DNA of 64,000 bases from Tribonema minus (Eukaryota; Sar; Xanthophyceae; Tribonematales; Tribonemataceae): assembly GCA_017506865.1 (NCBI GenBank), contig JAFCMP010000046.1:1116001-1180000 (forward strand), given 5' to 3'. The notes under the pieces are model-generated. The model saw nothing but the letters and a program-made list of their open reading frames with translations, searched no databases and had not been told where the DNA came from. The translations under genes were made by a program, and so were the position numbers. Shown here piece after piece: positions 30,348 through 63,500 of this stretch; position 1 is the first letter of the stretch, and each line of letters begins with the position of its first letter.

Positions 30348-33300
30348 ATGTCTCGCCAGGTGCTGGCTGCGGCCAAGGGATGGGGTGCCATGGGTGAGTT
30401 GCATCTGCAGTTGAAATTGTTATCGATTGCTTGTAGACGCTGGTGTCGCCACTGAGAGGGGAAGAGCCCACGAAGCAACGAATGCAGGCGACCACTTCAT
30501 TCCGTCTTGCCGGTTCCAAGGCACCATCTGCGTGATGAGTGGATCATCGTTCCGACGCGTTCAATTCGTGGGTGGGCGAGCGGCGCCTGCTGCTCACTCT
30601 TCTGGGACTGGCTTATAGCACACTTACTAATCTCGATAAAATCTATAATGATACGTCAACAGTATAAAAAATACTGTCATTATAGTGCAGGCCCGCTAAT
30701 CCTTGTGAGTCAACCAATGCATTGCTTGCGCCTTCAGGATCGCTGGATCTTTTTGTGTGTCACTTGTCAACATCCCCGCTCTTGCTGCACTATGCGGCTG
30801 GAGCTCGCTGATGACTCTATTTGTGGATGAAAACTATTTGGCGGACCTGGACATTGGCTCACAGCTTATCTCAGATGTGGAATGCATGAATTGCTGAGCC
30901 TCTAGGCAGCATTGATGGAAAGGCCAGACGAAAAAGCGTTGCAAGAACAGGATACAGGATTAATATCAGCTCGTTCAAGTGCTGTTGAAGTTGACAGAAA
31001 GTACCAGTTATGCATCTGAGGCTTTGGTGTTGGCCAGCTGGACTTCACTGCCTCTTGTGCACTGTGCGGCAGGCTGAAGTGCCGTGCAGTGCTATGCATC
31101 TGCTGCTCAGTAGTGCCTGCCTGCGCAATTATTGACTGGCACGTACAGGCTTCTCGTGGGCTTTCTACGCATGTATTTGTTGTTTTGTGCACCATTTCAT
31201 GCACCAAAGCCCCTCTCCAGCACGCATGCTGCGAGAGGAACCGCACGACCATGTTTTGGGTGTCTGAGATCTAGGTTCAATTCGGCTCAGGCTCGTTTCA
31301 GCTCGACAAAACTTTGTTGTGCTATGTGAGGTTCTTGGTGGACGCTGATCCACGTGCAACCTTCAGTTGGTTGGCCTCCTTGAGCTACACAGACACCGCA
31401 GTGCTGCCAACTTGCTGCCAATCGCTCAGTGTGACTCCGTAAGCGGGATGCTGTTACCTGACCAGCGTTGAAGTGGTGCCAAGAGTGTTTGACTGTCAGG
31501 CTACTTTGGGAGGCTGTCTTGTAGCAGTACTTGAAGTTGAATTTTCTGGTAGTACGTGGCTTTCGCTTACGTTGAAATTGGCCTGCAAGAATTGATTTCC
31601 ATCGTCATACATTAGTATGGGGCACCGCATCTATGGCAGACGCGTCGACCAGAGTCAGATGTACTGCTGAGTGCAAACGGGCTCGCTTCGCGGCCCTCAA
31701 ACCCAAAGTTAAAATGCGGATTTGTGCCCCCAGGTCTCGCTTTGCCATTGCATAACACCACCAGGGCTGCACACACTCGTGCTAAAGTATTATTTGAGCA
31801 CATGGCTTCCACTTGTGTTTGTTACCTGTGCAGGCGCCCGCTGCGGCACGCGGTTCCAGCCCAGTGGCGTCGCTGCTGCGCGCCTGAAGGCTTCCAGGCG
31901 CTGGCTCAGCGCTCAGCCTTCCGACCAGGATACATTTATGCAGGTACGCCTGTTACTGTAAGGTTGGCAGTTACAAAATGATGCGATAGCGTCCGATCAG
32001 GATACATTTATGCAGGTATGCCTGTTACTGTTGGGTTGGCAGTTACAGGATGACCCGAGAGCGTCGATGGCGGCACGGGCATAGCACCAAATGTGCTTGC
32101 AGCGCGAAGTGCGTCGACTGAGTACGCTGATGCTAGCAGCAGCTACACGCCAGCGCCAGGCTTATGAAATGGCAACTCCATGCACAGCTTGCACACACAG
32201 CTATCACTATCATGGCTTACACTACGGCATCCACCGTTGCTGACAGTGTCCGCGTTGGGTACAGGTCAATCTATCATCAAGCCCTCTTTAGATCAAAACG
32301 TACGAATGCGTGCATGCCATGCTCATCAACATGCAAACACTCGGCAGCTACTCTGAAGCGGCCTTGCCTCGCCATTGAGCTTGGAGGGCGGCCAGTACGT
32401 GACGCACAACTTGAGCTGAGCGCTGCTGCAGCAGGAGGAACAGCAAATGAGCGTGTCAAATGGGCAGTGTGAACCTGCAAATAGTGGTACACCGCGCGCA
32501 AATTGCGAAGGAGTGATCAGTATCTTGCGATTGTCTTGCGGCATACGTCACATTATGAATTGTACACTCCATTGCACTGCACGTGTGCAGTGTTTTTGGT
32601 TATATTCTGCAAGAATTTGTGCTACAATTTCGGGACTGTAATGCGAGTTGTTTCGCCCACCCATATTCGCTGCCATCACTCCTCTGGGCTCTCCTCACAG
32701 GGTCCCAATAGCATTTACGTGGAGAGCATGTACTCCGCCTGGAAGTCGGACCCTAGCAGCGTCCACAAGAGCTGGGACGCCTACTTCAAGAGCATTGACA
32801 AGGGCCAGGTGGCATCGCAGGGGGCGTTTGTGGCACCGCCCAGAGTCTTGGAGGTGTGTGTTCCCCAGTATCTGCGTAGCTTGGTGGTTCGGGCCGACGT
32901 AGTGACGTACATGCACAGATCACGTGTGAGTCACCGTTGAAATACTGCAGCAGGCTGATGGTGGAACGTGACTGCTCTTGAGTGATGTACCAGTATCAAG
33001 TAGTGAGCTGTCTGCACATGCGCTGTTGATAATTCAGTCAGGTTCATCCAGTCAGGTTTGCTTCAGCTTATCAATGGCGAAGTATGTCATCAATTGTATG
33101 TCGCTGGCAGCATATCCCTGTCATTCATTGCAGTTACTGTCGGCATAACCTGCTGACCTTGTGGTCGCAGGCACTGCATTTGCAAGATCTGATGTATGCT
33201 AGTGCGCCGCCCAACATAAGGGATCAATGCCTACAGTCACACAGGAGTAAAGCTCTGGTCATGGTGCCATGTCTGCACCTAGTTTGCCCTCATGGTGCAT

Positions 33301-36300: not shown

Positions 36301-39300
36301 ATGACAGGGGAATAATGCGATGCTCAACATGTGTTATCCATTGTTGTGCGGACAGCATGGCTGCAACATGTTTGCCGTAGCGGCGCCGTTTGGGAGGCCA
36401 ACTTCAACATCTTTGCATCAACGCACCACTCTTGGTACTGGCTTGCATACGTTGGAAGCGCATGTACAGCTTTCATCACACCTGCTCCTGTTTGTCACCC
36501 GCAGGTCGAGAATCCCGCGTGGTGCAAGTATGCCAATTATAACAACCGTGCATTCATGCATCACTCTCGGTACCAGCTTGCCTTGATTGAAGTGCAAGCA
36601 CACCTGTTCCTGTTTGTCGCTCTCAGGTTGAGAATCCCGCATGGCTCAAGTACACCAAGGAGCGCAAGCTGCACATCTTCGAGCGCCTGTGCTTTGCGGA
36701 CACCTTTGAGAAGTTCCTGCAGAACAAGTACAACACCGTCAAGCGCTTTGGCCTGAACGGCGGAGAGTCCGTCATCCCTGCCCTCAAGGTGAGCTTGCTG
36801 ATCGCTGCCACATGCGAAGTTCAACACTGTGCACAGGTGTTGAAGTAGTACAACTGAGTATCTGCAACTTGAAGTGTGAGCATGCTGATGGCTGCCTCTG
36901 CTGCAGGTTCAGCGGTGCGCACAGCTGCTGATGCACTGTCGCTTGAGCACTGTGACACAAGATTGTGCTGGCGTTTCTCGTCGTTATGCAGTTCAATCTG
37001 AGCACAGGGACTCGAAGTGTGGCAACATGCCTTCATCATGATGGTGTGTTTCTGTGCACAGAAGCCAGAGGTCATTTGCTCGCAGTGCACACCACTACAA
37101 AAATCCACTAAGAATGCTGAACCTCCTGTGTGTGTTGGGCTACCAGCTGGAGCTGGCCTACCGAACACGTGAGACCTTTCCATAGTGAACACCATGCCTC
37201 GAACGCTGAAGAAGCTTGCATACAGAAGTCTTTCGACTACTTTGGATATGATGGCACCCTTTGACTCGTGGCCAATGACTGCAGCAGCGGCGACCACGGT
37301 ATGTGGAAGGCACTTGCAGCATACCACACTTTGTCAACCAGAGCTCTACGATATTTTGATTCATTTCCACAAAGCTGACAGTCTAGAAACTCTCTTGATG
37401 TTTTGTGTCCCTTGCGTGTTGCACAGGCCATGGTGGACAAGGGCTCCGAGCTGGGCATCCAATCGTTTGTGTTTGGCATGCCGCACAGAGGGCGCCTCAA
37501 CGTGCTGGCCAACGTGCTGCGCAAGCCCATGCCGCAGATCTTCAAGGAGTTCCAGGGTAAGTCCATCAGGAGCAGTGTTTGGCCGTCTCGATATTCGGTT
37601 CGAGTCGCCATGAATGCAATGCGGTAGACACGGTGCTTGCACTCTGCGAGGTCTCTGATTATGACTGCAGTTGCTGTCTCTGCCTTTCGTGCGGCAAGGG
37701 GTGAGCTGGCCCAATCCTCACTCCAAATGATGGTGTGAGAGCCGGGTCGCCAATCACCAGCGGTTGGCCGTTTGAAGTAATGCAATGCAATAATGCAAAG
37801 TTGGTGCTGGGCGTGCAAGTAAACATAAGCAGCAGCTCATACTTGCGCACCATTTTTAACATGTAGAGTAAAGCGCATGCTCTCTAGGGTATGCGTGTAT
37901 GTGACCTATTTACTGTCACTGTGCTTTCTGGACATAAGCAACACTGATCACTAGTGAGCCACCAGCATGACACTTGCCATCACCGTTGTAACTTGGCAAT
38001 GAGCATGCAAACAGCCTACCCGTTACCAATCATACCCCAACAATTGGCCAGTCGCACTTCAACAACTGACATCTGAGCACTGCTGTCAGCGGGCGCCATT
38101 GCAGGCACGCACCGCAACCTTGAGTCCAACAAGAGCGATGATTGACCTTCTTGCCTATATATAATCATACTTCAACAATCCGTCAATCATGCTTCAACAA
38201 CTGCTTCTGAGCGCTGCTCAGGTACGCACTACAACCTTGAGTCCAACAAGAGCGATGACTGGTCATCCAGTGGCGACGTCAAGTACCACCTGGGCACCAG
38301 CATGGACCGATCCTACCCCGATGGCCGCAGAGTTCACCTGTCGCTGGTGGCCAACCCATCGCACCTGGAGGCAGTTGACCCAGTCGTCGTCGGAAAGGTC
38401 AGTCGTGCTTTGCATGTATATGTGTGCTTGTTGTACACATCGTGTCGAGTCATGCTTCACTGCACGCTTGGTCCGAACGCGCCAAATCTCACTGATCACT
38501 CATGGCCAACCCATCGCACCTGGAGGCAGTCGACCCATTCCTTGTCGGGAAGGTCAGTTTTGCTTTGGGTGTACGCGCGTCCTTGTTGTGCACCTTATGT
38601 TCAGCTTATCAAGTGCACACTGTTTTGTTGCGTGCTTGGTCCAAACGCATCAAAGCTCACCTACCACTGGTGGCCGATCCATCGCACCTGGAGGCAGTCG
38701 ACCCAGTCGTTGTCAGGAACGTCAGTCTTGCTTTGCGTTTACATGCAGCAGTGGCCAGTCTGTCCTTGTTGTGCCCGTTCTGTCGAATAATGCTTCACTG
38801 TATGTATGACCCGTATGCTGTAAAGCTCACCTGCTGCCATTGGTCATCGCCTCTTTAAATGGCAGTGAATATGACACCTAACATTGGTCCAGATGATTTG
38901 CAGTGCGGTGCACGATACACACACATCTAACCTCTTGCGTGAAAACTGTAACCCCCTCATGTTGGTACAGCGCTGAACTGGCAGCGCTGCATACATTCAT
39001 TGTCATCAGGATGGCGCATCTGTTTTGCTTACTTGCCACTTTCTGGATCCTTCTTGTTGCTGCGCTTGTTGTGCCTCAGACCCGCGCTGCCCAGTTCTAC
39101 AACGGTGACACCGTGGAGAGCAAGCTCAAGGCCATGGCAGTGCTGCTGCATGGCGATGCTGCATTTGCTGGGCAGGCAAGCTTCAAGTGCAAAATTGCAC
39201 TTCTGTGTAGGGAGGCTTAACTGTAATGTGTGCTGCTGTTTTGTACGCATGTTGCAAGGCCACTTGCTGGCATGAGACATTGTTTCTGCATATGTGACCT

Positions 39301-42300
39301 CCAGCTTGCCGCAAGTCAGTGTGACCAGTTTCTGATGTTGCCCAATAATAATCGGTTAGAGTGAGCGACAGAAGCACCGTTTCCGCTGGCGGCACCTGTT
39401 CAAGTCTAGATAATTGTGGTACCCCCAGCATTGCTCACAATTCCGAGGTTGTCACTGTGCATCGCTGAGCCTAGAGGTTAGAAACGGAACGGAACCGAAA
39501 CGGAAAACGAAATAAAAACTCCGTTTAAGATAGGACACGGATACCTCTTCAGGTCCACTAGCATACTCACAAGACGTGTTCAAATTATCACGTTCTAAAA
39601 CTGGATTTAAAAAAAAAGAAAAAGGAAACGGAAATTGTCCAGGAAAACTGTGTTTGAACTGTGTTAAAACGGACCGAAAAACGGAAACGGAATACGGAAA
39701 AACGGTTCCGTTTCATGCGAGTTTAGCCGCGTTTGCGTGCTTGTGTGGTGCCAGACATCGTCCTGGAGGGTGCACTGCACATTGTGCAGCATGACGATGA
39801 TTCAGGCATTTGCTCTACTTGACCAAACCGAACCGCGGTAAACAAGTTCAAGTGAAAGTTGAGGTTCAGTTTTTTTTTCGCAAAAATGCAGGCAGTGCAG
39901 TGTCTGGACCACAATCCTACAACTAACGCCTGTGCCTGAGACTGCTTGTCAGGGCGTTCCGTAATTGTCGGTCGCCCCTGCAACTAGCTGTCTCAAATGC
40001 GCGGTCACCCCCGTTTTACTGCCGTACTGTGCCGCAAATGCTGGACAGAGTCCATTGTATCGGATAGACGACATGTATGACATGCCATGTACTTGCAACC
40101 TATTTCGCCTTGCTTGCCCACCCAATGGGGTTAAGCAGGACCATAGTGTTAGCAGCATTTGTGCATGTCGTGGTGGTGTGCAGCGACTCAAAACGCCACC
40201 AAAACAAAACGAAACACGGTTCTGTTTTTCCGTGTTCCGTTCAACACGGAAAACGAAACGGAAACGGAATGCGCGTGGGGCCGAAACACGGAACACGAAA
40301 CGCAGGCCCCTGAACATTCCGTTTTTAACCTCAGCCTGAGCCACAGTGAGGCAGCATTGCACACTTTTTGCTGGATTGGTGCTGCAATGAATGTTGGCTT
40401 GTAATCATTCATGTGCCTTTTTTTCAACATCCGTCTTGCCGCTTGAAGTGTTGTCGATGTGCGCCCTCCCACTTCAGCAACATATTTAAACATCATCTTT
40501 CTGTTATCAGCTTCAATATACCACACAGCTGCCATTTTCACACGTCAGATACAAGCGTCAGTTCGCTCAATTGCCCTTATTTTGCCTGGTGATGTGAACA
40601 GGGCGTGGTGTATGAGACCATGCAGCTCATGCGCGTAGCTGACTACAGCACTGGTGGCACCATACACGTCATCGTCAACAATCAGGTAATAACATGTGTT
40701 GGTCAGTAGTTCGGTCATACGTTTCAGCAGGCTTCACCTGCGCCATATCTCCAGCCAGTTCTACATCTGGCATCATGGAGCTGTCAGGTGGTGCTGATGT
40801 GGTACTTAACAAGCATGAGCATTTATGCAGCAATGATGGGTGTCTACAGCACTGGTGGCACCATACACGTCATCGTCAAAGATAAGGTAATCATGTCTCA
40901 AATAGCCTGTGCTACTGCTCCAGCTAGTCTTGTGCGGTATACAAAACGACCTTCAGCTTCAGCGAGGCTGGGTCAAACTCAGGGTTAGGTAGCTAAAGTT
41001 TGGGTAAGCGTACCCCTAATTCTATTACTGTTCAACTTCGTTGGGCTGCCATGCGCGGCTTGCATTTGTGGCTAGGGTTAGAGCAGGAGAGAACGTTTTG
41101 TACCTGAAGGCGTGGTGTAATGTACCTTAGGGTTAGGATTAGGGTAGTAGTGCACAGTGCCGAGCATTGTTCGAGTTAGGGTTACGGTTAGGATTAGGGT
41201 TACGAACCACATACCAATGCGCCAAGTGATGCTTTGTCCACTACATTGTGCTGTACGTCCATTCAAGTCATCGAGTGACCACATGAGCATGCATCTGGTC
41301 AACGATGGCTAAAGCATGGGTAATGGAGGTTTTGGAACTGCGGTTGTTATGGTGTGCCGGATGAAGCTTAGGGGTAGCTTGGGTAGCTTGGAACAGCGTG
41401 GTTACCAGTACCAAGCCAACTTGCGCACACAGTCTCACTGAGGCGCTTTTCATTTGAGCAGTACTGACATACTTCAAAGTAGTTGCTCAATGCTGACTCC
41501 GGGGAACAGGATCATTGGAGCACTTTCTTCTGCCTCTAGACTGTAACGCAAGTTTGTGCGACATGCATCAGCTGCTGCGCAAGTACCCAAAGACGTGCAC
41601 GGTGGCACTAATGCGCGCCACCCTGGCGGCCTCACCACCTGCTGCATGTCTCCGCATAGATGTGGGCTTCACCGCCTGACAGTCATCACATAGTCAAGCA
41701 GCATCTTCTCAGACCAAATCACTTTACACTGACGCTTCCCCCGCTTCAACTGAAGTTGCTCGGTACTGACGCTACACATTGCGTGTGCCCAGGTGGGCTT
41801 CACCACCGACCCCGAAACAACCGCAGCACTGACTACTGCTCAGACCTCGGCAAGACACTAGTAGTCATGCAGTGTCTGCTTTGGCCACATCACTTCATAT
41901 CGATGCTTCTGCGCGCAACCGCTTCAATTACAGTCGCTTTGCACTGACAATGCGGGTTCAATCAAACTCACCATACACTGACGCTGCACACTGCGTGTAT
42001 GTGCCCAGGTGGGCTTCACCACCGACCCCGAGAACGACCGGAGCACTGACTACTGCTCGGACCTCGGCAAGACGTTTGAGATCCCCATCTTCCACTGCAA
42101 CGGCGACGATCCGCTATCGGTGTGCACCGCCTTGGAGCTGGCCGTGGAATGGCGTCAGACGTTCGGAGAGGACTGTATCGTGGACATGATCTGCTACAGG
42201 CGCATGGGCCACAACGAGATCGACCAGCCGCTTTTCACGCAGGTGCGAACAACGCGAGTGAGCTAACCGTAACCCTAACCCCAACCCGAAAACCCTAACC

Positions 42301-45300
42301 CTAACCCTAAGACATGATCTGCTACAGGCGCATGGGCCACAATGAGATCGACCAGCCGCTCTTCATGCAGGTGCGCGTGCGAATGATGCGAGTGAGACCG
42401 ATTGTGGCTTGAGTCGTTGGTGCTTGAATTGTTGAGCACTTGCGGTTCGGGCAGTGGAGGTGCCCAGGGGGCAGCGCCATTTTTGAATCATCGTGATGCA
42501 TTGCGCGCAGGCACCTTGTGCTGCATGCAAATGGTCTGCACTGATAACTTTTGGTATGTTCAAATCAGTAACACCAGGGTGTCATCTTTCCACTTGTTTT
42601 CACAAGGTCAAGTTGGTAACCAGCAACAGCTCTCTTTCGAGCGCCTTTTGAACAGCAGTGTTACTGGCGGAGGGGCTCAAGGGTCGCCCAGTGTCTACGA
42701 ATGTGTTTGCTGCATGGACACCCTTGCAGTGCGCTTGAAGTAGTCGACACTGCATGCACAAGCATCTCTGCTCTCTCTTCTCTCTCGTCTTGGTACTTAT
42801 TTTCTCTACCTTCCCCCCCCCCCCTCCCCCCCTCAGCCCACTGTCTACAAGAAGATTGCGAATCACCCCGACACGGTGTCCATCTTCGAAGCGCGCCTTC
42901 TGTCAGAGGGCGTTGCCAGCAAGGAAGAGCTGGACGGCATCAAGGCCTTTGTGCAAGAGTCGTACGAGCGCGACTTCGACGCCAGCAAGACGTGGGAGAC
43001 CTCCAAGGATGACTGGCTGTCGTCCAAGTGGTCGGGCTTCAAGTCGCCCCGCCAGCTGGTGAGTCACTCGCTTGAAGTTTGCATATTGAAGTTTGCATGT
43101 GCAAAGTGCTGTGCAGTGGCAATGCATGTGGTGTTCAAGTGGTCAGGCGTTTTGTCGCCCCGCCAGCTGGTGAGTCACCTGCTTGAAGTTTGCATGTTGA
43201 AGTTGGCATGTGGAGAGCGTTCCGAAGTGGCAACGCAAATGCTGATCCTTGTTGCGAGAAGTGATTGTGTGACAATGACCATGCTCTGCCACAACTTTTG
43301 AACTGGCTGTTGGATGCATTACGATCATTGTGCCCAGCGAAGTGCAGGGCCTATCTGTCGCTTTGACGTGTGTTGAAAGCGGTCTGGTGAAATGCGTAGC
43401 GCATCTCGTCGTGTGTCTGTTTGTCCTACCTCAGGATCAAGACGAAGTTCATGACCAATCCAACACTTGCACCTATGCAATGGACTCCAAAGTAGAATAC
43501 TACAAGCGCGGGCAAGCAACAGTGTACACCTGCGCCTATGCACTCCGCCTTGACAATGACTTGCCGCTGCTGGTGTTATGCTGTTGTGTTGAGGTTTATG
43601 TTGATACTGATGTCGGTGTTCATGTCGGTGTTGATGTCTGTGTTAAAGTTGGTGTTGGGGGTTGATGTTTGTGTTGATATTGATCGTTGATGTTGATGTT
43701 GCTGTTGACGTTGTGCAGTCGCGCATTCGCCAGACCGGCGTAGACCTCAAGGTGCTGCGCGTGGTGGGCGAGAAGATGACCACCATACCATCCAGCATCA
43801 CACTACACCCTCAGGTACAGTACTCAGTGGACTTCGATGTATCCAGCATTACCCTACATTACCCTACACTCTCAAGTACAGACTATACTTGTCCAGCATT
43901 ACCCTACACCCTCAGGTACAGTAAATAGACTTCTGATATATCCAGCATCACACTACACCCTTCGGTACAGTAGGCTTTACATTGAGTTTCAGTTGAGACA
44001 TTTCTGTGCAATGACATACTTCTAGAAGATGACCACCATACCATCCAGCATCACACTACACCCTCAAATACAATACTCAGTAGAGTGTGATATGTCAGGT
44101 ACAGTTGTCAGTATGATATATCCAGCATCACCCTTCACCCTCAGGTACAGTGCTCAGTAGACTATGATATATGCAGCATCACCCTACACCCTCAGGTATA
44201 GTACATAAGTAAACTATGAAGTGAGACATACTTTGATAAGATGAATACCATACCATCCAGCATCACCGTACACCTTCAAGGACAGTACGCAGTAGACTTC
44301 GAAGTGAGACAACCTTTTCGTGGTGTACTTGATTGATGTATGCTTGAAGAGCAAAACCTGCCATGTTGGTGAGGCAACTTTGTGTGATGTACTCTGTTCA
44401 GGAGCACAAGATCATGTGTTTTGCATGTACAGTAGGTAGGTTGGAAGCTACACCCAGTTCGGAACACTGGACTAAGCACGTACGGTACACTTCAGCCTGG
44501 ATCAGCACAAATACTTTCCTGTGAGTCAATAGTGTGGAATGCATTACACTGTCCTGCACGTCTCAGCGCATGTGTGTGCTGAAGATGTCAGCATACCATG
44601 TAGCATCACTCTGCTCCCTCAGGTAATTACTGCGCACTGAGGCAACTGTGTGAATGGTACTACGCGTCAGTAGCAGTGTTTGCGCGCTAGAGACAGTGGC
44701 TACACACCTGTCGTAATAAGCTTCACTGGCTCACTTACAAACTCAGTAGTTGCATATTCGCCTTGGCCCTCCGCTGCCCTCCTCCATTGGGCAGTGAGTG
44801 GCAGTTGCAGTCGTTGATGCTCAGTCTGCCACATATGTACGAAGCGCGTTGTCGAATTGTGCTGTACACTATGGGAAGGCATCCAACTAGTTCACAGTGG
44901 GCCCCGTGCGCAATGTGTAGCACATGGCGCATCTTTCAAATACGTACCACCTGCGATCAATACTCATAAGTTGCTGCTTGGCAGACGCGCATCATGAACT
45001 GTCACTGACGCCTGCACACGTGGTGCATCGCATTGGCTGCAGCTGGTCAAAATCGTCAAGGCGAGAGCGGATGCTGTGTCAGGTGAGTTGTTGAGGTAGG
45101 ATTTTGAAGTGGACCATGACTTAACCATTACAGTGACTAGATTATGGTAAAGATCTTCACACCTTGCAATTGCCCTTTTCATATCGCGGCGATATAATTA
45201 TGTGATTCAGGGCCCAAAAGCATTATTATGAGGAATAGCTGCCGCTTCATCTACGCTAGCTGCTGGTGTGAAAGCAACAAATATAGCAAACACCGACTGC

Positions 45301-48300
45301 TTTAGCAGACGTCAATGCTGAAAGCATCACTCTAACAGCGCCCGGGTGTATGTGTATGTATCATGCGCCCAGAAGTGATAACGTTGACACTCTGTTGTGT
45401 CGGACGTGCATCACGGCCCAGCTGTGCGTGCCCATCACACCATTCTTTGATCAATAGCAGTTGCTATGCAATTTGTGGCCCATTTGCAGTGGGCAAAGCA
45501 ACCGTCAAGACTCCTCATGATGTAAATTGACATGTGCTTGTGTGTGATGCTTTTTGCCGCAGAGGGCCACGGCATCGACTGGGCCACAGCAGAGTCGCTC
45601 GCATTTGGCACTCTATTGCTCGAGGTACGTCAAAGTGTTTGGTCACCATGCATCACATGTGTTCCGTAGTTGACATTGAGAGGAACGACAAACTGTTTGT
45701 TCATCATTTGTCGTGGTTCTATCCAGCAATGATCATTGAAAACAATTGACCAATTGAAAGCGCTCATGCCCGACAAAGTGCGTGTCATTACATTGTGCCT
45801 TGAAAGCTTCGGGAAGCGCCGCACTTGTGCCATCCAGTCTCATGCGTGGTCATTGCACGATGATACGCCTGCTCGCCTTTCATTCAGTTTCTACAAGGTG
45901 CCACTGGCATTATCATATACGGTGACAATGGCGGAGATGCCAACCTCTGCTATACTTCAAAGTATGTGTTTGACGCTCAGCCCAATGCTTACGTTTTCTT
46001 CTCAGGGCAACCACGTGAGGTTGACGGGCCAAGACGTGGAGAGGGGCACCTTCAGCCAGAGGTCAGTGATATGACTTTGGTGTGTGCTTGAGGCTCAATG
46101 TTCAACTTCTACAATGGAACACAACGTGTGATCTGAAGAATAAATTTGTTCCAGAAAACATAATTGGGCATAAATGAGGAGAATTGAAGTATCAATGAGA
46201 CGGTGGCTTGTCCACTGCACGGACTGTCCGGCTGTGGATATTCATGAAAAGTCAAGCTACGGTAGTGCGTGCATGACTTTTGGCAACATGGCAGAGCCCT
46301 TCGAGCCAGAGGTCAACATGTACTGTGCCTGCACCAGACAGAGTTTGGGCATTACCAGCCTGGGTTTCTGTATGTTACGGCGAGGGCCCGACAGGGCAGA
46401 GGAAGTGTATGTGAGATATTATTAACGCTTCATCACGTTTAGTGGCGGCACACCACAGCACGCAGTCGTCTGGTGATGCCTCTGTGTGCAGCACAGCATG
46501 GTGGAGCTTTGTTCGCTTTGGTTTGGTCTGCGCAGCACAGCACGCAGTGGTTTGGTGGAGCTTCGATCAGACCGCTGAGTGCTGTGGTGCACGGCCACTG
46601 AACGGTGTAGGGTTAGGGTTAGGGTTAACTAACCCTAACCCTAACCACTGAATGGTGTGCTGCACAGCCACTGAACGTGACGAAGCGTGAATAACATTTC
46701 ACATACACTTCCTCTGCCCTGTTGGGGGGGCCCTCGCCGTAGCATACAGCAGCGGCAATCAACACAGTGGAGGAAGTCTTGGTATGGTGCATTCGTGTAC
46801 TTTATGTCACAGTCCTCTCCGAGCAATGATCCGTACAGCTCGATCTTGTTCGCTTTGCACGTGCAGCGCTCGATGATCGCTACCGTGTTGCTGTACCTCA
46901 AAACTTGCCAGCACACGTTTTCGCCACTGCCATTGCATCAACAATGCAACTCATCAAATACGCTGAACGCTGAACCATACTTCGAAGTACATACATACAC
47001 TTTGAAGTACTTCTACATATGAAAAACGAATCAAAAAGATCGTTGAGCTCCAAGTGACAAGGGATGGTTAGCCGCAAGTGCCTTCCACCAATAACATATA
47101 TTTGTATTGGTGCCGGAGCTCATGTACACGCACACCCGGTGCAGCTCTGCGCTCTGCACACATGTCAGTTACACTGTCTGAAACTGTCATTGTACAACTG
47201 GCGCTGACTGGCCAAACTGCAGGCACAGCGTGCTCCACTGCCAGCAGACCAACCACCAGTACACACCGCTCAACCACCTGGCCAAGACCGCCAACCCATC
47301 CATGCCGACTGCCACGCTTACGTACGCACCCGAGGCTCAGGCCAAGGTACGCTTGAACCATTCAGCTGCACGCTGCATTGGCTGTGACGACTGTGGAGTT
47401 GTTTGTGGGTAGTTTTGCCACAAGTGGGCTGTGAAAATAGTTTCACAGCCTACAAGCATAGCATGCGGATTTATTTTTTCTGCAGCAGTGGTGAGCAAAG
47501 CAGCAATCCCGTACTGTCGACCCTTGAACATGCCATTTCAGTGCATCTTGGACCAGGGCATTTGCGTGAAGTGAGTGGTTAATGCATACTTGTTGCTAGT
47601 TGATCTTTCGCGGGGATTGTGCGTAATTGATGGCACGTGTGTAGGGCAGTAAGTAGTACTCATGCTGGATGTCTGCTACTTGCGGTTGGTACCTGGATAC
47701 AGCTGCCATCTTGCTCTTTGCTGTGATTACGGAACCCAGTTCATGTTGCACCCAATCGCATACGGACTACTTGCTGTCAGCTTGACGCATGCGGTGCCGT
47801 TGACTCGTCTGTCATCGCACTGTCGTGTACCCAAGAGCAGCTTCACCGCGGAATGCGTCAATCCTTGCGCCACGGGCTGTTGTTGCCCCATAAGCACTAC
47901 CAGCGATAGCGCCATGCTTTTGCCATCACTTTTGGATCATCAACATCAAGCTCTTCGTCACATTTTGGTACATCATGCTGAGAACTGTTACATGGTGCTC
48001 CTGCTTGTTGTTGCCGCAGTACACCGTGCGCAACTCCATCCTCAGCGAGTTTGCGGTTCTGGGTTTTGAGATGGGCTACTCACTGGAGAACCCTAACGCT
48101 CTCGTGCTGTGGGAGGCTCAGTTCGGCGACTTCAGCAACGGCGCGCAGGTACGTACACAAGATACTTACTGTACTTCCACGTGATCATTATACTGATTCC
48201 ATGAGTTTATGTGATTATGGCGCTGCGCTACAGGCTGTATACCTGTTCTGCATCATCACATTGGTCAGTGCACTGAAGACAATGTCTTGTTGTAGTGTTG

Positions 48301-51300
48301 TAGTACATGTAGGATGCCGGTCGTAGGGAAGCCGTTATTGCACAATACGAGGTTGAGCAGTTGCTGGACTCAGATGGACAACTGCAGGTATTTGGTGTGC
48401 ATCTGCCGAGCTACGCAGTCTCTACGGACATCGAATTTTCTGCGCTTGCAAGGATGTATGGCCATGTAGCTGCGGACGTCGAATTCTTTGCTGGAATTCA
48501 CGACTGTTTTCAGCTCTCAATTGCCTCAGTTTGCTTATTCATCATCACCTTCAGTCCATCACGAAACACTTGTCATGCAGTCAATAACTTCAGTCCATCA
48601 CAAAACACGTGTCGTGCAGTTAATGCTCACCTATCACATGACGCTCATTCCATCACTTCTACATCGTCACTTCGTCGTGCAGGTGATGATCGACCAGTTC
48701 ATCTGCGCTGGCGAGGACAAGTGGCTGCGGCAGTCGGGCCTCACGCTGCTGCTGCCGCACGGCTACGACGGTCAGGGCGCGGAGCACAGCTCGTGCCGCA
48801 TGGAGCGCTTCCTGCAGATGTGTGACGATGACCCGGATACCGTGCCGCAGCTGGCCTTTGAGCAGCGCATGCAGATCCAGGTATGTATGTATGCGCACGT
48901 ACCCTCTGGGTGTGCCATCAAAACGCGGACATGATACCGGTTCATGAGCAGCAGAAGTTGACCTTTCCTTTTGATGACAACATGTAACAATTAGGAAATG
49001 GTCCTCAAGTGCACACTTTTATCGATGAACACATATAGGTACCTAGTCCAAGCTGGCCTTTGAGCAGCGCATGCAGATCCAGGTGTGTTTGTATACGCAT
49101 GTACTCCTTGGATGAGCAATCATGATTCAGACATAATACCAGTTTTGGGTTGATTAGCAGCAGAAGCAGACAATTCCTTTTTTCAAGATGAAGATGTCAA
49201 AATCAGAAATGATTTTTCAAAGCAAGCGTTTATTGATGAATACATATAGGGAGTCCAATCTGAGTTTTGCGCAGCGCATGCAGCTCCAGGTATAAATGCA
49301 TGCATGTATGTGTGTATGTATGGGTAGGCACTCTGAACCGCGCGCGTGTTGCTTTTGATGTGGTACATAGTGCAGGCACGGATGAGCCCTCTGGCATTTG
49401 TGATAGAAGGTTCACAGTCACCCCTGCTGCCGCTTGTATGCAGACAAGCTTGTGCATGTAAGGTGGGAAGCGAGCATAAGCATACGCAGTGTGCATGTTG
49501 ATTTACAGGGATGCCATCGCAACACGCCTCAAGCAATGACGAATGTTCAGAACAAAGTCCCTGAATGTATATATATATCACGTCTTTTGATGGTTCTGAG
49601 AGTCCGATAATGAGATGCCCACACTTGTTGCATGTTGTGTTCACGATGTTGGTACGCCTTTGAGCAGCATGAAAATTCATGTACTTTTTATTCATTCTCG
49701 CTCAGGGCGCGAAAAAGCCCAGATGAATGGCATCTGACTTGAAGCTTGCTGTACGGAATCTACATGTCGTGTGACAGTTTGAAAGTGTCTCCATGACGAC
49801 CACTGTTCATGTAGTTCTTCCAAGTACGTCCCACATTTTTCCGGCAGGCTTGCCTTTGCTTGGGCGGTACTTCACAAAACCCTGCAATTGTTCAGCCTTT
49901 GCACACAGACATGCCCTCACTTACTCTGCCTGTTGCGTGGCCTGTTGCAGCATGCCAACTGGCAAGTGGTCAACTGCACCACGCCTGCCAACTACTACCA
50001 CGTGCTCAGGCGACAGGTGCGTGGCCTGCAGCGTCTCACATACATGCATACATACCCATGCGTTCATACGTTGCATGCGTGTGTTGTGGAAGTAATATGA
50101 GATGGGAGCAACCTAGCTAGTTTATTGTAGCATGGTGTGGTTAATAAGCACTGGTCATGCGAGGCGGTGATCAGCTGCACTTTAGCATGCTTTCAGGGTA
50201 AACAGCACGTTGCATTCACACTGACTATGCATCTTGTTTATGCCTCGTTCAGACTGGTGCACGAGCTGAGTGCGGCTCTCATCGTCATGTGTAGGTCATG
50301 TATTTGACATGTGCTAAATCATTTCATGATGCTGCGCACTGTTGTGTTGTGGTGGTGCGTCACAGGTGCACCGCGAGTTCCGCAAGCCCCTGATCGTGGT
50401 CGCTCCTAAGAGGCTTCTCAGGCTCAAGGTCAGTCAGCTGCCTGACACAGCTCACAACATAGTCCACTTGCGTGACTCCTTACACACAGCATGAAACACG
50501 CTTCCTAATGTGCTACTGCTTTGAAGAAGGAAACAGTGGCAAAATCGTTTCATGTGGTTATACTTGAGAAAAAGGAAACAGGTGCAGAATGTTCATGTAC
50601 TTGTGCTGTGATGATACATAGTCACACGCTCTAACGCGCTCAGTCTTGCCCTAACCCCAACCCCAAGTACTGTCCCCTGTCAATCCGGTTGCACTATTGT
50701 TGATAGCTCTGGCAACTGCAGATTTGAAGTTGCAGTGCCTCAGGCTGTTAATGGTTCGGCGTCAGAGGCTGCATCTAGTCAAAGAATTTTGGTTTTGACA
50801 CAGCGGGGCATTCCTGCTTGGTGGAAGTGTGTCGTTGAAGTTGCAGGCTGAAGTCACAAACTGCTGCATCCTTGCGGCAATGCGCATGCCCCTCCTGCTT
50901 CAGCGCTTCAGCCTTGAGGACTTCTTGCTAGCATACCTGCCCCCTCTGCGCGCCCATTGAACACCGCTTACACATTTGCAGGGGCTCACCATTTGCTCAT
51001 CACCACAATTGCCAACGTGATGATTGAATGGTTCTGCAACGCAGGCTGCAGCGTCCACACTGGATGAGATGGGTGCGGGCACCATGTTCCAACGCCTCAT
51101 GCCTGAGGAGAACGCAGAGATCATTTCTGAGCCTGCCAACGTCAAGAAGCTCATCTTCTGCTCTGGCCAGATCTACTACGACCTAATTGCGGAGCGGGAA
51201 AAGGTGCGTATGGTATCTCTGCAGTCCCACTAGTTTTGCAACACTTCTCTCCAAATGGAACTATGAAGTATGCCAGTCGAGATCAGATCTGACAGCAGTG

Positions 51301-54963: not shown

Positions 54964-55545
54964 ATGAGGGCGGCGTTTCTTGCGCTGTTCATCCCCACTG
55001 TTGCCGTGGTTGTAGATAGCTTCGTCCCACACGCCGCAGGGCAGCTGGTACGCCACTGGTCTGGCAGCAGCAGCATCAACAATGGCAGCCAGCAGCAGCA
55101 GCAACAGCAGCGACAGCGGTGGCTGCTCCGTGCCGGTGTCACAGAGTGGACGGCTGACGAAACCGGTTCAGCTGACGAGTTGAGAGACGATGATTCAGCT
55201 GGCTCGGCGGACGCTGGCATCATTGCTACATTAAAGGTGCTGCTGGCCGCTCATCACAACGACATCAGGAACGACATTGAAACGCGGCACGTCGGCATCA
55301 AGACGGACTTCAACGAGCTGCGCGCTGACTTCGCCGAGCTGCGCGAAGACTTCAAGGATCTGCGCGATCACTTCAACGATCTGTGCCGTGATTTCAATGA
55401 TCTACGCAGTGACTTCGCTGAGCTGCGCGGGGACTTCAACGAGCTGCGCAGTGACTATAACAAGCGATGTGATGATATCAACGCCAATTTAGGCAGTGCG
55501 AGAAAGGAGATTATTAGTGCAATCCACAAGTCCCGAAGAATCTGA
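54964..55545 (+). CDS. Secreted heptad-repeat coiled-coil protein, hypothetical
   Basis: Single open frame of 193 residues. Residues 1 to about 27 are a hydrophobic signal-peptide-like start (MRAAFLALFIPTVAVVV). A QQQQQQQ run and an acidic stretch follow. Residues of about 113-180 are nine near-perfect seven-residue repeats of the form DFxELRx (DFNELRA, DFAELRE, DFKDLRD and so on), an unbroken parallel coiled coil. I do not recognise the family. The same 5' flank and signal peptide recur in broken form at 55913-56010, and the coil recurs inverted at about 56005-56170, so it belongs to a local duplicated family and could be part of a mobile unit. Confidence 0.6.
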   Translation: MRAAFLALFIPTVAVVVDSFVPHAAGQLVRHWSGSSSINNGSQQQQQQQRQRWLLRAGVTEWTADETGSADELRDDDSAGSADAGIIATLKVLLAAHHNDIRNDIETRHVGIKTDFNELRADFAELREDFKDLRDHFNDLCRDFNDLRSDFAELRGDFNELRSDYNKRCDDINANLGSARKEIISAIHKSRRI

Positions 55546-55557
55546 TATGTCTGCCGA

Positions 55558-55910: not shown

Positions 55911-55912
55911 CA

Positions 55913-56239
55913 GAGGGCTCTAGTGGACTAGCTGCGATAGTGGTACATGAACATTTTGGCGGCGTTTCTTGCGCTGTTCATCCGTACACTGATGATAATC
56001 TGACTCGGTTTTTCCAGATTCGCATTGACTTTGTCGCGCTGCTTGTCGAAGTCATCGCGCAGCTCGTCGAAGTCCATCTTGATTTTGCTGCGCACTTTGT
56101 CAACGTCGTTCTTGATGTCGTTGCACTGAGCGGCCAGCTGCGCCTTCATCGTAGCGATGACACGCCAGCCATCTCGCCACGCCAGCCAAGCAGCGCTGCC
56201 ATTTGTATGCAACGTCAAGTTGCATCTATGCGAGCACAT
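55913..56239. pseudogene. Broken direct and inverted copies of the coiled-coil gene
   Basis: Plus strand: GGGCTCTAGTGG and CGGCGTTTCTTGCGCTGTTC repeat the flank and start of the 54964 gene but reach a stop after about 17 codons. Immediately beyond, the minus strand encodes VIATMKAQLAAQCNDIKNDV and KIKMDFDELRDDFDKQRDKV, related to the coil of the intact gene, in inverted orientation. Confidence 0.6.
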
Positions 56240-57547: not shown

Positions 57548-60500
57548 TTAGGCGAAGTCCACGAACTTGACTTGGTGCACCAGCGGGTTGTCCTTGCACG
57601 CCAGCTCAATTCCGTACTTGATCTTGGGGCTGCCACTGCACGAGCATGAACATCAACACCATGGTTGAACAAACATCAGCATCAGAGAAGTGATCCCTCA
57701 GCAAAACACAGTTGAAAATGAGTGTGTGTGCAAGTCAAACATGCACCAGAGTTGTCTGAATGCAGTAATCACTGTGCTCAGTGTCTACAACTTGAGGAGC
57801 GCTGCCTGTGTGTGAGCCAGACTTCAAGACATGAGACCACTGAAGTATACAACCATCATTGCTGGTAAGGCAATGTTGACAAGCGTGATGATGTACTGCA
57901 TTGGACGTCCTGATGCAGCTTCAAATGATCTGAACATCAGTGTGCCATTCACAAAGCTCAAATAAGAGAGAACACAGTTGATTCTTGTGGTTCAAACGCG
58001 CAACTTCAGTGTTGACGCAAGTAAGTGAGCAGGCTCATTTCATGGCAAGCTTGGCATTGTTCACTTGTGGCAGCAAACACTAGAACATCATGCTAGATGC
58101 TTGCAGTTGACACTGCGCCACACCTGACATCACCCCGCACCATCAAAGGTACATCACTATGACATCTCAAGGTGTGATGCATTCCCTTTCAGTGATTTGC
58201 AAAACTCCAAAATTTCATGCCGCATGCTAGCGATGCTAAACCCTGGCTCCAACTCACCTGTACCCTAGGGTGACGACGCCATCAAACACGCTGACCACCT
58301 TCACCTGGCCATTCATGGCCTTAATGGCAGGTCGGATGGGTTCCAGAATCGACTCCACCACGTCTGCCGTCACCTGAGCAAGGCCACCTCCATCCTCCTC
58401 CACACGCACAACCTGTGCAGCAAGAACACAAGATTGTCAGGCATGACTCAATTTGTAGAAGTAGAGCTAACGAGTATTTGTTGCAGAGGACTAGGTATGC
58501 TTTGATGTTGAACTAGTATGCATCCATTTCAGTGGTGTACAAACTGCCCATCAACCACACATGATGATCAGGAAGGGTGGCAAGTTAGTTGGTCCACATT
58601 AATATTCTGGAGGCCAACTCATCGAAACGCCAGGTGCTTGCAGATAGGCATCCCCAAATGCATTGGCTGCTGCCACGTCGTGACTCAACTTCAACACAGA
58701 CAAGTTCAACATGGACAACTCTCCACCACAATCACGCGTCATGTTACACCTGGGCAAGGGCACTCCTGTTCTCGCATCATTCAAGACTCAGCAGCAAGCG
58801 TTGAGTGAGAAACCAACCGAATACTCCAGGAAAAATGTTCTTTTGGTACCAGACAGCAGCTTTACGCCCACTGCCTGCAAAGCGGATTAGTCTACCTCAC
58901 GGTCAACACTCTCATGAGTTATTGATACTAGCACTTATAAAACATGCAGGACAGCACTCGATCGCACTACAATTTTAGTTAGGTAGGCATCACCAAAGGT
59001 TAACTAATTTTTAATGATACGCACCCCGCCAAGATTCTCGAAGTTCTCCTTGAGCACCCTCTCAATGCCCATCTGCATGGTCACCGTGCTGCTGGGGCAG
59101 CTGCCACAGGCGCCCTGCAGTGCCAGCGAAACGACCCTGCAACAAGACAACGGGCACAGTTTCATCGGTGAAAGGTGAATGCTGAGCCACCGTGCATTGC
59201 ACGCACTTGACGAGGTTGCAACGCCGGAGAAACGACCCTGCAGCAAGAAAATGAGCACAGTTTCATCGGCGGACGGTGAAAGCTGAGCCACCATGCATTC
59301 CACGCACTTGAGGAGATGAACTGCGTTTGTGTGCGGGCATGCAGATGAGCATCATCAAGCACAGGCACGTTTGTGTGCAGCTGTGTGCAAGCCACTAGGG
59401 CGGCGGTACGTATACCAAGTAAACACAAGCTAATGCAGAAGTGGCACCATGCATAAGACAAGCATTCGAATTGCTGTTTGTGAAGTTGAGGTTGCACACA
59501 GTCACAGCCTCTGTCAACACTCCGCTGCAAAGTTCCACTGCAAGGTGATGAAGCGGCGGAGCCTGTGCCGTGCCGCCAAGGAGCGGTGCACAAATTACTG
59601 TGTGTCTTCTTGCTGTGAATTTCAGTGTTCAACACCACTGCGTATGAACCAAACATGCGCATACCTGGTCTCCTGGTCCACCGCCACCACTCTGCAGTTG
59701 CCCCCATCGGCAATCAGGTAAGGCCGCACTTCATCCAGCACCTGCATACGATGTGATGGCGTGAACGTTCAGCGTGCAGTAAGTTCAAGTTAAAGTTGCC
59801 AATCACGTACGGCCGTATCCAGCACCTGTGCGACACATGATAATGAAGTGATGGAGTGCAGTTTCAGCACGTGCAGTAACTTCAACTGAAGTTGCCTGGT
59901 GCGACGCGATGCGAGCGCGACGTCCAACCAGTACTGCATGGCCCGGAAGCGTTGCGCCCTCAGGCAGCTCAAGACACCATGTATAAGATACAAGTGTTGC
60001 GCTGTCGCAAGTACAAATTCCAGCTCTGTTGCTTCCACAGCTCCCACTGGTCAAGCGGTAAGCTTAGCACGCAGGCGTGCATCTTCCAATGTCGTAGGCA
60101 AGACAAAATCTTAGATCCGAGCACACTACTCAGCAACAGCTGCCAGCTCGTGTCATACTAAACCATAGAGCCTGATGTTGACGTTCTGCCAAGCTTCAAT
60201 GAGCATACACCTGCCCCCGCACTGGCAATGGCGCCAGCGCACCGAGCCTGGTCGAGAGTGTTCACAGCGCAGCCAAGAGCACATTCTAGTCAGCAGCTGC
60301 AACCTCAAGACTCCAGGGATGACCAGACTGACAGTATACATACGGCACGCACCTTGTCCACATTGTCAATGGTGAAGTCCAGCGCCCTGCACTCCAGTGG
60401 CTCCGCGCCAGTGCCCAGCAGCTCCTGAGGCGTGGTCATCTGCTGAGGCGTGGTGACCTCCTCTGGGCGCGGTGTGACGGTTGCTGCCGTCTGCTGGTTG

Positions 60501-63500
60501 ATCACTGCTGACCAGTCGTCGTTCTCCACTGACGCCTGCAGATTCGCCCTCCTGGTTTCGCTGTCAAGGTCTTGCGCCTCCAGCTGCATGTCATGAAACA
60601 AAAGTCAATGAGGTTGGACTTGGCTTTAGCATGCAGTGCCAATAGCTTGATGACATTTGCGTTGCTGACAAGTTGCACTTGATGCTGCATGAGCTTTTTG
60701 CGCAGTTGTTGCAGCGTCTGTGTATACATATCAAAGCGCACACACACGTTTATTCATGAAAGCAGCAGGACACACAGGGCACTCGTCTATCATCACAAGG
60801 CACCTATGCGCTCAAGGACTGTCTTCAACACGCTGAGTTGTTGGCATGCAATACTTGCAAACACTGCAGGGTAAACTGGGGCAGAGGTACGCTGTTTGGC
60901 ATATAGAATGTCGAGTGATCTCAGGAAATTTCTCACCTCATCCACCAGCGATGTGTCAGCGATTGCCTTCCTCATCTTCAACTTCATCTCCTCGTAGGAG
61001 CCCCGCTGCTCAGCAGCCATTGCGGATGCTGCGTCCTGCTCGAATTGACATCAACATATACCAATGACATGTATGTCGATATGTCACCGTCAGTACACAC
61101 AACAACAAAACTATACGGGAGTGCAGTGGTTGAGGCTGGTCATGCTTCACACGCAAGCAAGTACACAGGTGCTAGACCATGCTTTGCCTGCACCAACAAG
61201 AGACCGTTGCACAGGTCGTGAAATTGCTGACATGGCGAAATCACTGTAAAGGGAAGCCTAACAAGCATTGGCGCATCCATGAACAGAGCTGTAACTGTCC
61301 TGCTTCTTGACCTGCACTCTGAGGCTTGCTACACATGCTGAGCATAAATGCCATCCTTCTGATGCCAACAAAGTGTCAACTTTGGCCCTGATAATAAACG
61401 TAGCGGACTCCAGCAAAGTGTCGTGTTGGCCGCGCACGTTGCACCCATGTGGTATGTGACATGACACATGACGAACCCCTGCCCTTTCACGTTGCACAGA
61501 CAAGTCTTTTCTGCCCCCCAAGCAACATGACATTGATTGAACTACGAGCTGCAGCCACCATATGCAATGGCATTCACCCTCATTGCATAACCTCAGAGGT
61601 CTGCGCCTCCTCTGTCAGTATCTACACGCATGATTCAGCCTCGACACACCACAAATTCATGAATTTACTTGATTGTCTGCGCCCATTCATCGCCCCGCGC
61701 GTTGCCTGCAGGCACCTCCCAGCACAGCATGAATTCATGAATTACCTTGATTGTCTGCGCCCATTCATTGCCTGGCGTGTTGCCCTCGGGCACGTCCTCA
61801 GCAGCCGCCAGCCACTGCTCGCGCAGCGCTTCCATCTCCGACCGTTTTGGGTAGCGAAACGACTGGATCCTGGCCAGTGCCACCTGGCACACATTTGAGC
61901 AGTGTAATGTGTCATTATTTACTGTAGTTTGAATCTGGTGTAAGAAGCATGTGGCATGCTTGCATACCCGTACATTTGAAAATTGGCGACAATGGTGCCG
62001 CAGTGCTTATATACATACCATAAGAAGGCTATATTTCCGGTTTACAAAAGCGGGTTGTTGTGCGCCATGTAGGTGAGCTGTTTGACACAAATGTGTACTG
62101 TCATATACAACCAGCCAGTCCGGGCACTGCTAGTGCAGACATGCGACCGTGCTCAAAATGAAGTTAGAGCAGACAGCAGCGTGGAAATCTCTATATGATT
62201 AATGACATACACACGACAGTGCAGTGTGAATGCACAATCAAATGCATGAAGCAGACTTTGAAGCATGAGGACACCAGCAGTGATGCAATGGCGTGAACTA
62301 CCTTGTTGGGGCCTTCATTCTGGAGGTGGCACTGCAGGCTGATTGCCACGTTCCGTGACATGCCAACAAAGGCCAGCTTCCCGTTTGCGCCGATCACAGA
62401 GTACACAGCTGCTATCTTACTGTTGCCATACTGCTTCAGCCACTCCGTCACACTGAGAAGGCAAGAGCGCGAGCAGAAATCATGAGCATGCATGCGTCAC
62501 GTCAAAGAAAATGGATATACAGAGGGGAAAGGGATCTGGATCACTAACCCGTCAAACCATTTTGAGACAACAGCTCAAGCTGATGCATTGACTGACAGAC
62601 GTTGATTGTGAAAAGTCTGACCTGCTCGTTACCAATGTCCAGCAATGCCAGCATGCATGCATAATGCTCCGCACACACAGATGGATTGCCAGCCTCTTTC
62701 TTGAACAACATTTACTGTGTAAACGAAGCGACCCTGGGAATTACGACAAATCTAATTGTTGCCGATCATCAGTAGGCTTCGACAGGAACCTGACATGTGT
62801 AGGTGCAAACAGCCATCACCAGATCCGCCATCGCAAGCACTCATGACAGAGTGCCATGTGCAGTTCTCGGAAGCACCGCATCAATGGGTTATCCGCTGCA
62901 TGAAGTCGAGGCCACATGGATGCCCAGTGCTGAGCAGACCTTCCTACAGGACTGCCATGTCGCGCCTGCATCTATGGTCTACACGTGCATGTTGAACGCG
63001 GCCTCCAAGCACACTGAAAGGTGACTTCAATGCACACCATAATGCAGATAACAAACTATGATGTAAGCAACTCCTTAGGCGCAATTTTACCCATAGGGCA
63101 CCACCGCATTGTTTCAGCTTTGTTGCACACTCTATGCGCAATCACCCAGTGCAGTTACCAGCGGCTGCAAGACCTGTCATTGCACTCAACTTGTGATAAT
63201 TTATTCTGTGCTTCTGATTGATGATTTTTGCACATATAGCAAGACACAAGTTTCATACACATTGCTGGTGGTGCTGCAGTTGTGAAAACACACGGCTGAT
63301 TGACCTCAGAAGTGTGCAAGCTCTCTATATAGTCATATCCAAACTTAGGTGGCAAGAATCCAAATTACAAAAGTACGCTGCTGATGCAACCATGACCCAG
63401 AGGTTCGCTGTCACCATAATTTGGATTCACTGGGAGCCACGCAACCACATGTAATCATCCCTATGATACCGCTGAGGTCACATAGCATACACACTACGCA

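Follow-up and report, generated by a model that had tools for sequence, protein, structure and literature searches.

Tandem duplications at exon–intron edges in OGDH and other genes of Tribonema minus

OGDH, an NFU-like gene and their duplicated edges

A 64,000-nucleotide stretch of the intron-rich genome of Tribonema minus (Xanthophyceae; assembly GCA_017506865.1, contig JAFCMP010000046.1, positions 1,116,001 to 1,180,000 of the forward strand), here called the window, contains the gene for the E1 component of 2-oxoglutarate dehydrogenase (OGDH) and an NFU-like gene. At the exon edges of both genes, blocks of sequence spanning the splice junction recur as direct copies nearby. A first-pass annotation, made from the sequence of the window, named 14 such junctions in OGDH, the NFU-like gene and a putative LRR gene; a nearby copy was found at 13 of them. 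Coordinates are those of the window unless another stretch is named. D and A denote donor and acceptor edges, and OGDH exon numbers follow the first-pass annotation.

OGDH occupies 31834–53315 on the forward strand. Its 27 exons, which are exons 2–28 in the earlier numbering, were rebuilt one by one, and in one of the three frames the sole stop is the terminal one. The protein predicted by a gene finder carries the four OGDH domains PF16078, PF00676, PF02779 and PF16870. Two of the 26 introns, at 34150 and 39176, begin with GC instead of GT.

All ten OGDH edges named in the first-pass annotation have a nearby direct copy. Comparison of the window with itself places the copies in the adjoining intron, downstream of donors and upstream of acceptors, and gapped alignment shows that in most pairs the copies follow each other head to tail with little or no gap, the period ranging from 72 to about 250 bp. 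The simplest case is D2, where the functional exon tail and donor (31920–31991) are followed directly by a tandem copy (31992–32063); this 72-bp unit has 1 mismatch in 24 exon positions and 8 in 48 intron positions. At A9 the copy (36398–36530) precedes the functional acceptor and exon head (36533–36652) with a 135-bp period, which is also the period at A11 (copy 38028–38125, functional 38163–38242). D11 (functional 38328–38490) is followed by two copies, 38489–38658 and 38651–38828, with a period of about 155 bp. At D13 the functional block (40640–40697) and the copy (40841–40896) agree at 90% over 58 bp, with intron-side homology that is weak and not significant (p 0.49). A14 has its copy at 41691–41856 and its functional block at 41862–42073, with mismatches at 3 of 64 exon and 19 of 102 intron positions. 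At D14 (functional 42183–42269, copy 42311–42400; 95% over 65 bp) a TTAGGG-like tract (42263–42311) lies between the copies and the intron-side homology is borderline (p 0.052). D15 (functional 43022–43125, copy 43133–43236) has a 111-bp period and 83% identity. The functional edge of D16 (43771–43843) is trailed by four decayed copies, at 43882–43948, 44024–44096, 44120–44188 and 44235–44305. D22 (functional 48849–49039) has copies at 49051–49250 and 49266–49404, the first with no mismatch in 32 exon positions and 32 in 154 intron positions. At all ten edges the functional edge is the outermost copy, as had been proposed; the outermost copies are the functional ones because the open frame passes through them.

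Weaker pairs within OGDH, with E values of 0.05 or better, include a possible eleventh edge, A4, one pair starting at donor 9, and intron-internal pairs at 34810, 34833, 43588 (TGTTGA-rich), 46448 and 46571 (TTAGGG-rich). Intron 19 also contains an imperfect inverted repeat (46368–46749) with arms of about 105 bp at 82%, between which lies a TTAGGG/CCCTAA palindrome (46611–46646).

The NFU-like gene (57548–63601, reverse strand) has eight exons in the gene-finder model, with GT-AG at the internal edges. Residues 182–247 form a NifU domain (PF01106), and there is a match to PDB 2z51. The exons at 59137 and 59742 lie inside this domain and the exon at 61745 lies outside it; exons beyond the domain are predictions of the gene finder. 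Copies occur at all three edges that had been named. BLAST finds those at the acceptor edge 59136 (59137 in the first-pass annotation; functional 59116–59214, copy 59217–59315, 85% over 99 bp) and at the donor edge 61746 (given as 61745; functional 61723–61803, copy 61645–61724, 83% over 81 bp). The copy at the acceptor edge 59741 (given as 59742; pair within 59721–59905) is rich in indels and was recovered by gapped alignment only, with a score of 73 against a null 99.9% point of 45.7; one of 1870 null comparisons scored as high. The junction proposed at 8623 in the LRR gene fared less well. The pair there (8609–8824, forward strand) is a 46-bp direct match, nearly half of which is a TTAGGG tract entered by both copies, and the putative exon edge is without homology support.

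Outside the window, the same kind of structure is seen in a gene for isopropylmalate dehydrogenase (IPMDH), whose predicted protein scores 414 bits against its Pfam family and matches PDB 5j32 with an E value of 1.2e-116. As read from the sequence, its exon edges carry arrays of two to four copies. Directly after its stop codon, at 4007–4113 of the stretch L006, there is a further tandem duplication with a 60-bp period, both copies of which contain the motif TTTGTAACTGCC.

Frequency and placement of edge duplications

The wider sample comprised 314 kb, made up of the window and 25 stretches of 10 kb each, or about 0.2% of the 158-Mb genome (554 contigs). Genes were predicted with a purpose-written, splice-aware finder seeded with OGDH and retrained on the 314 kb; in the last round it placed 25 of the 27 OGDH exons exactly, OGDH being part of the training. 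Each of ten predicted proteins scanned against Pfam matched a family; they had been picked because they looked conserved, so that this is not a success rate. Some predicted proteins may begin with plastid-targeting peptides like those of secondary-plastid algae. A strict filter gave 186 introns and looser rules 298; 165 of the 186 are 150–2500 bp long. Self-comparison of the sample yielded 125 clusters of local direct duplication, so the duplication process is not confined to the window.

Among the 186 strict introns, 42 events cross a donor, 19 cross an acceptor and 30 are interior, so that 61 of 91 are crossing; a further 3 of 94, which reach less than 8 bp across an edge, were counted as neither. 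The 165 introns of intermediate length give 32 donor, 19 acceptor, 20 interior and 2 marginal events (51 of 71 crossing). The ten edge events by which the two sets differ lie beside predicted introns shorter than 150 bp (eight), where a decoy has often been called as an exon, or in introns longer than 2500 bp (two). In the hand-checked set of three genes, with 40 introns (OGDH 26, IPMDH 7, NFU 7), 17 events cross an edge and 5 do not. This count retains as interior one IPMDH event that seems to be a pair of decoys within a donor array, includes an IPMDH exon start (5418) that is off by one base, and omits from the 17 the NFU edge at 59742, which BLAST missed.

Predicted intergenic DNA contains 12 events in 46.8 kb, or 0.26 per kb of sequence, which is close to the 0.24 per kb of opportunity in intron interiors. 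The first-pass annotation had taken tandem duplication to be concentrated at splice junctions, as opposed to equally dense elsewhere. Equal density away from junctions was not found in the 314-kb sample, junction-spanning units being several-fold denser.

It might be argued that duplication is uniform and that the excess is one of preservation: a frozen exon copy would keep edge events recognizable for longer, and interior ones would decay or vanish. Such a bias is real, for the exon part of a pair diverges more slowly; just 20 of 51 edge events could be detected again from their intron parts alone, and interior events are younger than edge events (Mann-Whitney p 0.003). Its size was estimated in forward simulations that placed duplications uniformly, kept exons frozen and allowed substitutions and indels; seven of the ten settings also had a quiet recent period. 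The share of crossing events was 32–37% in three settings, 33–36% in four, and 26–28% in three with large indels, compared with 67–72% observed. On the introns of the three hand-checked genes, two uniform settings gave 27–30% (p 1.2e-6 and 6.2e-6). When an edge preference was built in, a four-fold preference produced 63% crossing (one setting) and a 2.5-fold preference 48–49% (two settings).

Correction for detection gives a similar picture. Planted duplications were recovered with a recall of 0.89 inside introns and 0.94 at donors, from which the edge-to-interior rate ratio is 6.6 (bootstrap 3.9–12.6). A conservative correction, with the empirical recall of the intron parts of edge events (13 of 38, 0.34), leaves a ratio of 2.5 (1.2–5.3), the figure most favorable to preservation bias. 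The same formula, calculated by hand for the three uniform settings with large indels, returns 0.38–0.52 instead of 1; it therefore over-corrects, and 2.5 is kept as a lower bound and not as the main figure. Dividing 2.5 by 0.38–0.52 places the excess at about five- to seven-fold.

Intron-only windows, which gain nothing from a frozen exon, show the excess as well. In 128 introns of at least 450 bp, 50-bp windows were duplicated in 19% of cases near the edges and 10% in mid-intron (sign-flip p 0.0001); in the part of the sample outside the window of 64,000 nucleotides the figures were 20% and 12% (91 introns, p 0.003). Five uniform settings gave the opposite slope, with fewer duplicated windows near edges than in mid-intron. 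The similar densities of interior and predicted intergenic events also indicate that interiors are not specially depleted. Preservation bias as the whole cause of the excess is thus a lesser possibility, although one of substance. Edge duplication is real, widespread in the sample, and beyond what a neutral uniform model produces.

The placement of the breakpoints is likewise uneven. Outer breakpoints overall cluster 20–80 nt inside exons. On the donor side, 21 events have theirs at exon positions -60 to -20 (about 3.2 per kb), compared with 8 at intron positions +20 to +450 (about 0.14 per kb). Density peaks 20–60 nt inside the exon (about 3.0–3.4 per kb); the intron bins from +20 to +450 have 0–0.25 per kb, and the one from +450 to +700 has 0.42. 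On the acceptor side the peak, at -40 to -20, is lower (2.1 per kb) and less sharp. Units reach less far into the exon than they would if placed uniformly, 88% of 51 events extending 70 nt or less where 61% was expected (Kolmogorov-Smirnov p 0.0004), a comparison affected by the trimming of old copies by BLAST. Across the 186 introns there are 42 donor events for 19 acceptor events (p 0.004).

At predicted stop codons, coding edges with no splice site look similar. Copies were found downstream of 6 of 38 predicted stop-codon edges, where about 1.1 would be expected at the intergenic rate, and upstream of 1 of 33 predicted start edges (stop versus start p 0.11); both kinds of edge are those called by the gene finder. 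If the predicted ends are right, the preference is one of coding edges and not of splicing. Duplicated donors differ from others in intron length (p 0.018) and nearly so in AT skew (p 0.051), and exon length does not separate them. The longer introns are a consequence, since duplication itself lengthens introns.

Divergence and age of the copies

In 13 OGDH pairs over ten edges (A4 and D9 excluded), the exon sides differ at 56 of 560 positions (10%) and the intron sides at 211 of 986 (21%). Donor events in the wider sample give 222 of 2122 and 469 of 2350 (10.5% and 20.0%). Along the donors, mismatch is 10.9% over exon positions -60 to -6 and 7.8% over the six exon bases next to the junction; on the intron side it is 12.1% at +1 and +2, 12.8% at +3 to +6 (12.6% for +1 to +6 together) and 22.6% at +7 to +30. 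For acceptors the exon values are 11–15% and the intron values 10.5% (AG), 17.6% (-3 to -6) and 21.4% (-7 to -20). This is the pattern of one copy held by selection and one that drifts, and the constraint on donors ends near +6.

The intron side is itself homologous in most pairs, which are more than chance resemblances. Intron-side homology reaches p < 0.05 in 40 of 51 edge events; at least 20 intron columns could be aligned in 31 of the 51, and in these every intron side has p < 0.05, with p < 0.01 in 20. In most OGDH alignments and in these 40 events a short unit is repeated head to tail, as it would be after break repair. Inverted repeats are scarce and without edge bias (7 interior, 3 edge).

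Each crossing duplication creates at birth a second splice site, and the first-pass annotation had proposed the copies as a source of decoys. That decoy sites arise is borne out, the GT being identical in 25 of 32 donor copies and the AG in 16 of 19 acceptor copies. Such numbers might suggest that the extra copies are retained as working alternative or decoy splice sites. However, they are close to the neutral expectation, and the decoy splice signals are no more conserved than their surroundings (donor +1 and +2, 12.1%, compared with 10.9% in the exon part); the decoys decay at an approximately neutral rate. Of the codons changed in the exon parts of the OGDH decoys, 25 carry nonsynonymous and 19 synonymous differences, and the 13 pairs have 7 gaps there, a further indication that retention for function is very unlikely. 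Mismatch at the three codon positions in these parts is 8.1, 5.9 and 16.0%; the values for positions 1 and 2 are below half the intron divergence, possibly from slight constraint or from alignment bias.

Exon parts less diverged than intron parts could also result, as in alleles, from an assembly error or from the tandem joining of two haplotypes. This explanation is very unlikely here, because the copies differ by 10–20%, and a 261-bp OGDH query of the genome returned, among the best candidates scored, only itself and its own tandem copy. The idea that the spare copies are diverged working alleles was rejected on the gaps and the mostly nonsynonymous codon changes in OGDH, which also speak against joined haplotypes.

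Tandem duplication across AGGT has been proposed as a route to new introns, and the first-pass annotation suggested that this process was being seen at high frequency. In outline, the AGGT model (PMC3443670) and the Drosophila cases of intron gain by tandem genomic duplication (PMC2891723) share with the present events a short tandem duplication within a gene that carries copies of splice sites, and duplication across splice-like motifs does occur here. They differ in that in those cases an exonic unit is duplicated and the intron gained has the length of one unit, whereas here the unit crosses the edge of an existing intron. The signature of birth by this route was found in none of 182 introns: in ungapped comparisons, which miss old events, no donor flank resembled its acceptor flank above the null 99.9% point, and the mean scores were 12.98 and, for the null, 12.87. 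The copies lie inside introns and mostly carry intron sequence (the 40 of 51 above). Intron birth is therefore not supported and, as a reading of these arrays, extremely improbable; at the ages that an ungapped test can see, the duplications represent the growth of existing introns and not their origin.

The edge events are close to uniform in age. When each OGDH edge is represented by one pair, the divergence of the ten intron parts fits a single age (chi-square 6.3, 9 df, p 0.71), D13, whose intron homology is doubtful, being among them. Of these ten, in a gene whose exons were placed manually, the least diverged is D16 at about 9% (3 of 32). Divergence is nearly homogeneous among all 33 measurable edge events (p 0.058), and it is not among 30 interior events (p 5e-15). 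These findings, together with the donor bias, would suit a past, roughly synchronous wave of duplication at exon edges, now stopped, that was coupled to transcription or splicing through breaks at R-loops or pausing sites or through repair templated by nascent RNA. This appears unlikely, since detection truncates old ages and so partly forces homogeneity, the intron homology of D13 is doubtful, and duplication is about equally frequent at predicted stop-codon edges (6 of 38), where there is no splice site. A broader form of the idea is somewhat less doubtful, though still speculative: an ancient, approximately synchronous wave aimed at exon edges, perhaps at the edges of all coding blocks including stop codons, may have remodelled introns genome-wide by break repair linked to transcription, splicing or RNA. 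If so, a conserved copy beside a drifting one would provide a built-in clock for the age of the event and for the reach of splice-site constraint.

Probable break repair at coding edges

The best explanation, to which a probability of about 0.55 can be given, is that tandem duplication by DNA break repair favors coding edges and is then filtered by selection. Head-to-tail units of about 70–250 bp would form several times more often with a breakpoint 20–80 nt within an exon and its partner in the adjoining intron than with both in noncoding DNA, probably by repair of staggered or nearby breaks. After duplication across a donor the original site would lie upstream, and after duplication across an acceptor it would lie downstream; the mRNA could thus stay unchanged and the duplication be retained. 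As the divergence shows, the functional edge is then held by purifying selection, at donors to about +6, as the spare copy and the intron parts drift approximately neutrally. A filter acting on the signals met first would yield more donor than acceptor events. In this way existing introns would grow and decoy splice sites would arise and decay, but new introns would not form. Given the similar picture at predicted stop-codon edges, the cause of the preference is more likely to be some feature of coding or transcribed DNA than splicing as such.

Several observations weigh against this explanation, in addition to the 2.5-fold lower bound given above. Intron-part divergence below 10% is seen in 1 of 33 edge events compared with 7 of 30 interior ones (Fisher p 0.022), and a steady mutational preference would leave young edge events, of which few are seen. 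Their scarcity may reflect either a past wave or the weeding out of young events or their loss from strict gene models. The two-to-one ratio of intron to exon divergence is clear at donors only; acceptor events have mismatches at 116 of 793 exon and 140 of 757 intron positions (14.6% and 18.5%). Intron-side homology does not reach p < 0.05 in 11 of 51 edge events, some of which are perhaps not simple tandem units. The p value of 0.004 for donors over acceptors belongs to the 186-intron set, and the 165-intron set gives 32 and 19. Junctions beyond the three hand-checked genes come mostly from a gene finder partly trained on OGDH. Lastly, GC content and GC skew are alike in 31 duplicated and 134 other donors, among which no sequence cause was found.

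With respect to known systems, the duplications are best filed as local tandem duplications with a preference for exon edges. Among the best-ranked literature matches, no title reports duplications concentrated at exon–intron edges. Small tandem duplications arising from DNA break repair with fill-in by Pol alpha-primase (PMC8355091) share the short head-to-tail units; the abstract of that work makes no mention of exon edges. Introners (PMC9860276, in outline) also place repeated sequence in introns on a genome scale, but their copies are inserted in many genes and those described here are local. Sharing of the introner type between genes was not seen in the self-comparison of the window, which gave 40 pairs; those listed (less than 3 kb apart or above 60 bits) are all local. 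In the genome the 261-bp OGDH query likewise matched its own locus only, among the best candidates scored, and no genome-wide search for such sharing was made.

The sample is also rich in TTAGGG-like tracts, with 62 in 314 kb, or 67 by a count that gave 0–7 for permuted or other hexamers; examples in the window lie at 4829–4868, 15118–15143, 28691–28725 and 42263–42311. Frequent short tracts of this sequence, some adjoining arrays, recall the interstitial telomeric sequences reported, in outline, at sites of break repair (PMC2246262; PMC7215372). The likeness is limited, as the association with arrays here is weak: 14 of 62 tracts lie within 30 bp of an array, where 12.1% would be expected (p 0.015). 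Many tracts and a weak association would fit a genome with many repaired breaks, without proving it.

Should the preference for edges be real, mutation would depend on gene structure at a scale of 50 bp, which bears on how introns grow and where decoys are placed. The frozen and drifting pairs are a natural experiment in which the end of donor selection, near +6, can be seen in one genome with no other species aligned. The copies also mislead gene finders, several decoys having been predicted as exons here, and the annotation of such genomes may hold false repeated peptides.

Some other features of the window and the sample may be recorded. At 55306–55456 of the window there is a 21-bp minisatellite of seven copies, with an inverted partner near 56034–56186. 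Tandem duplications of 290–330 bp that are 99–100% identical lie in predicted introns at L007 2746–3407 and L018 4982–5565, and are either recent events or assembly errors. GC content ranges from 49 to 67% between contigs, with the highest values in L025 (67%), L016 (63%) and L017 (61%); contamination and compartments are both possible. Finally, the protein predicted at L003 6357–9766 consists of two near-identical halves of about 220 residues each.

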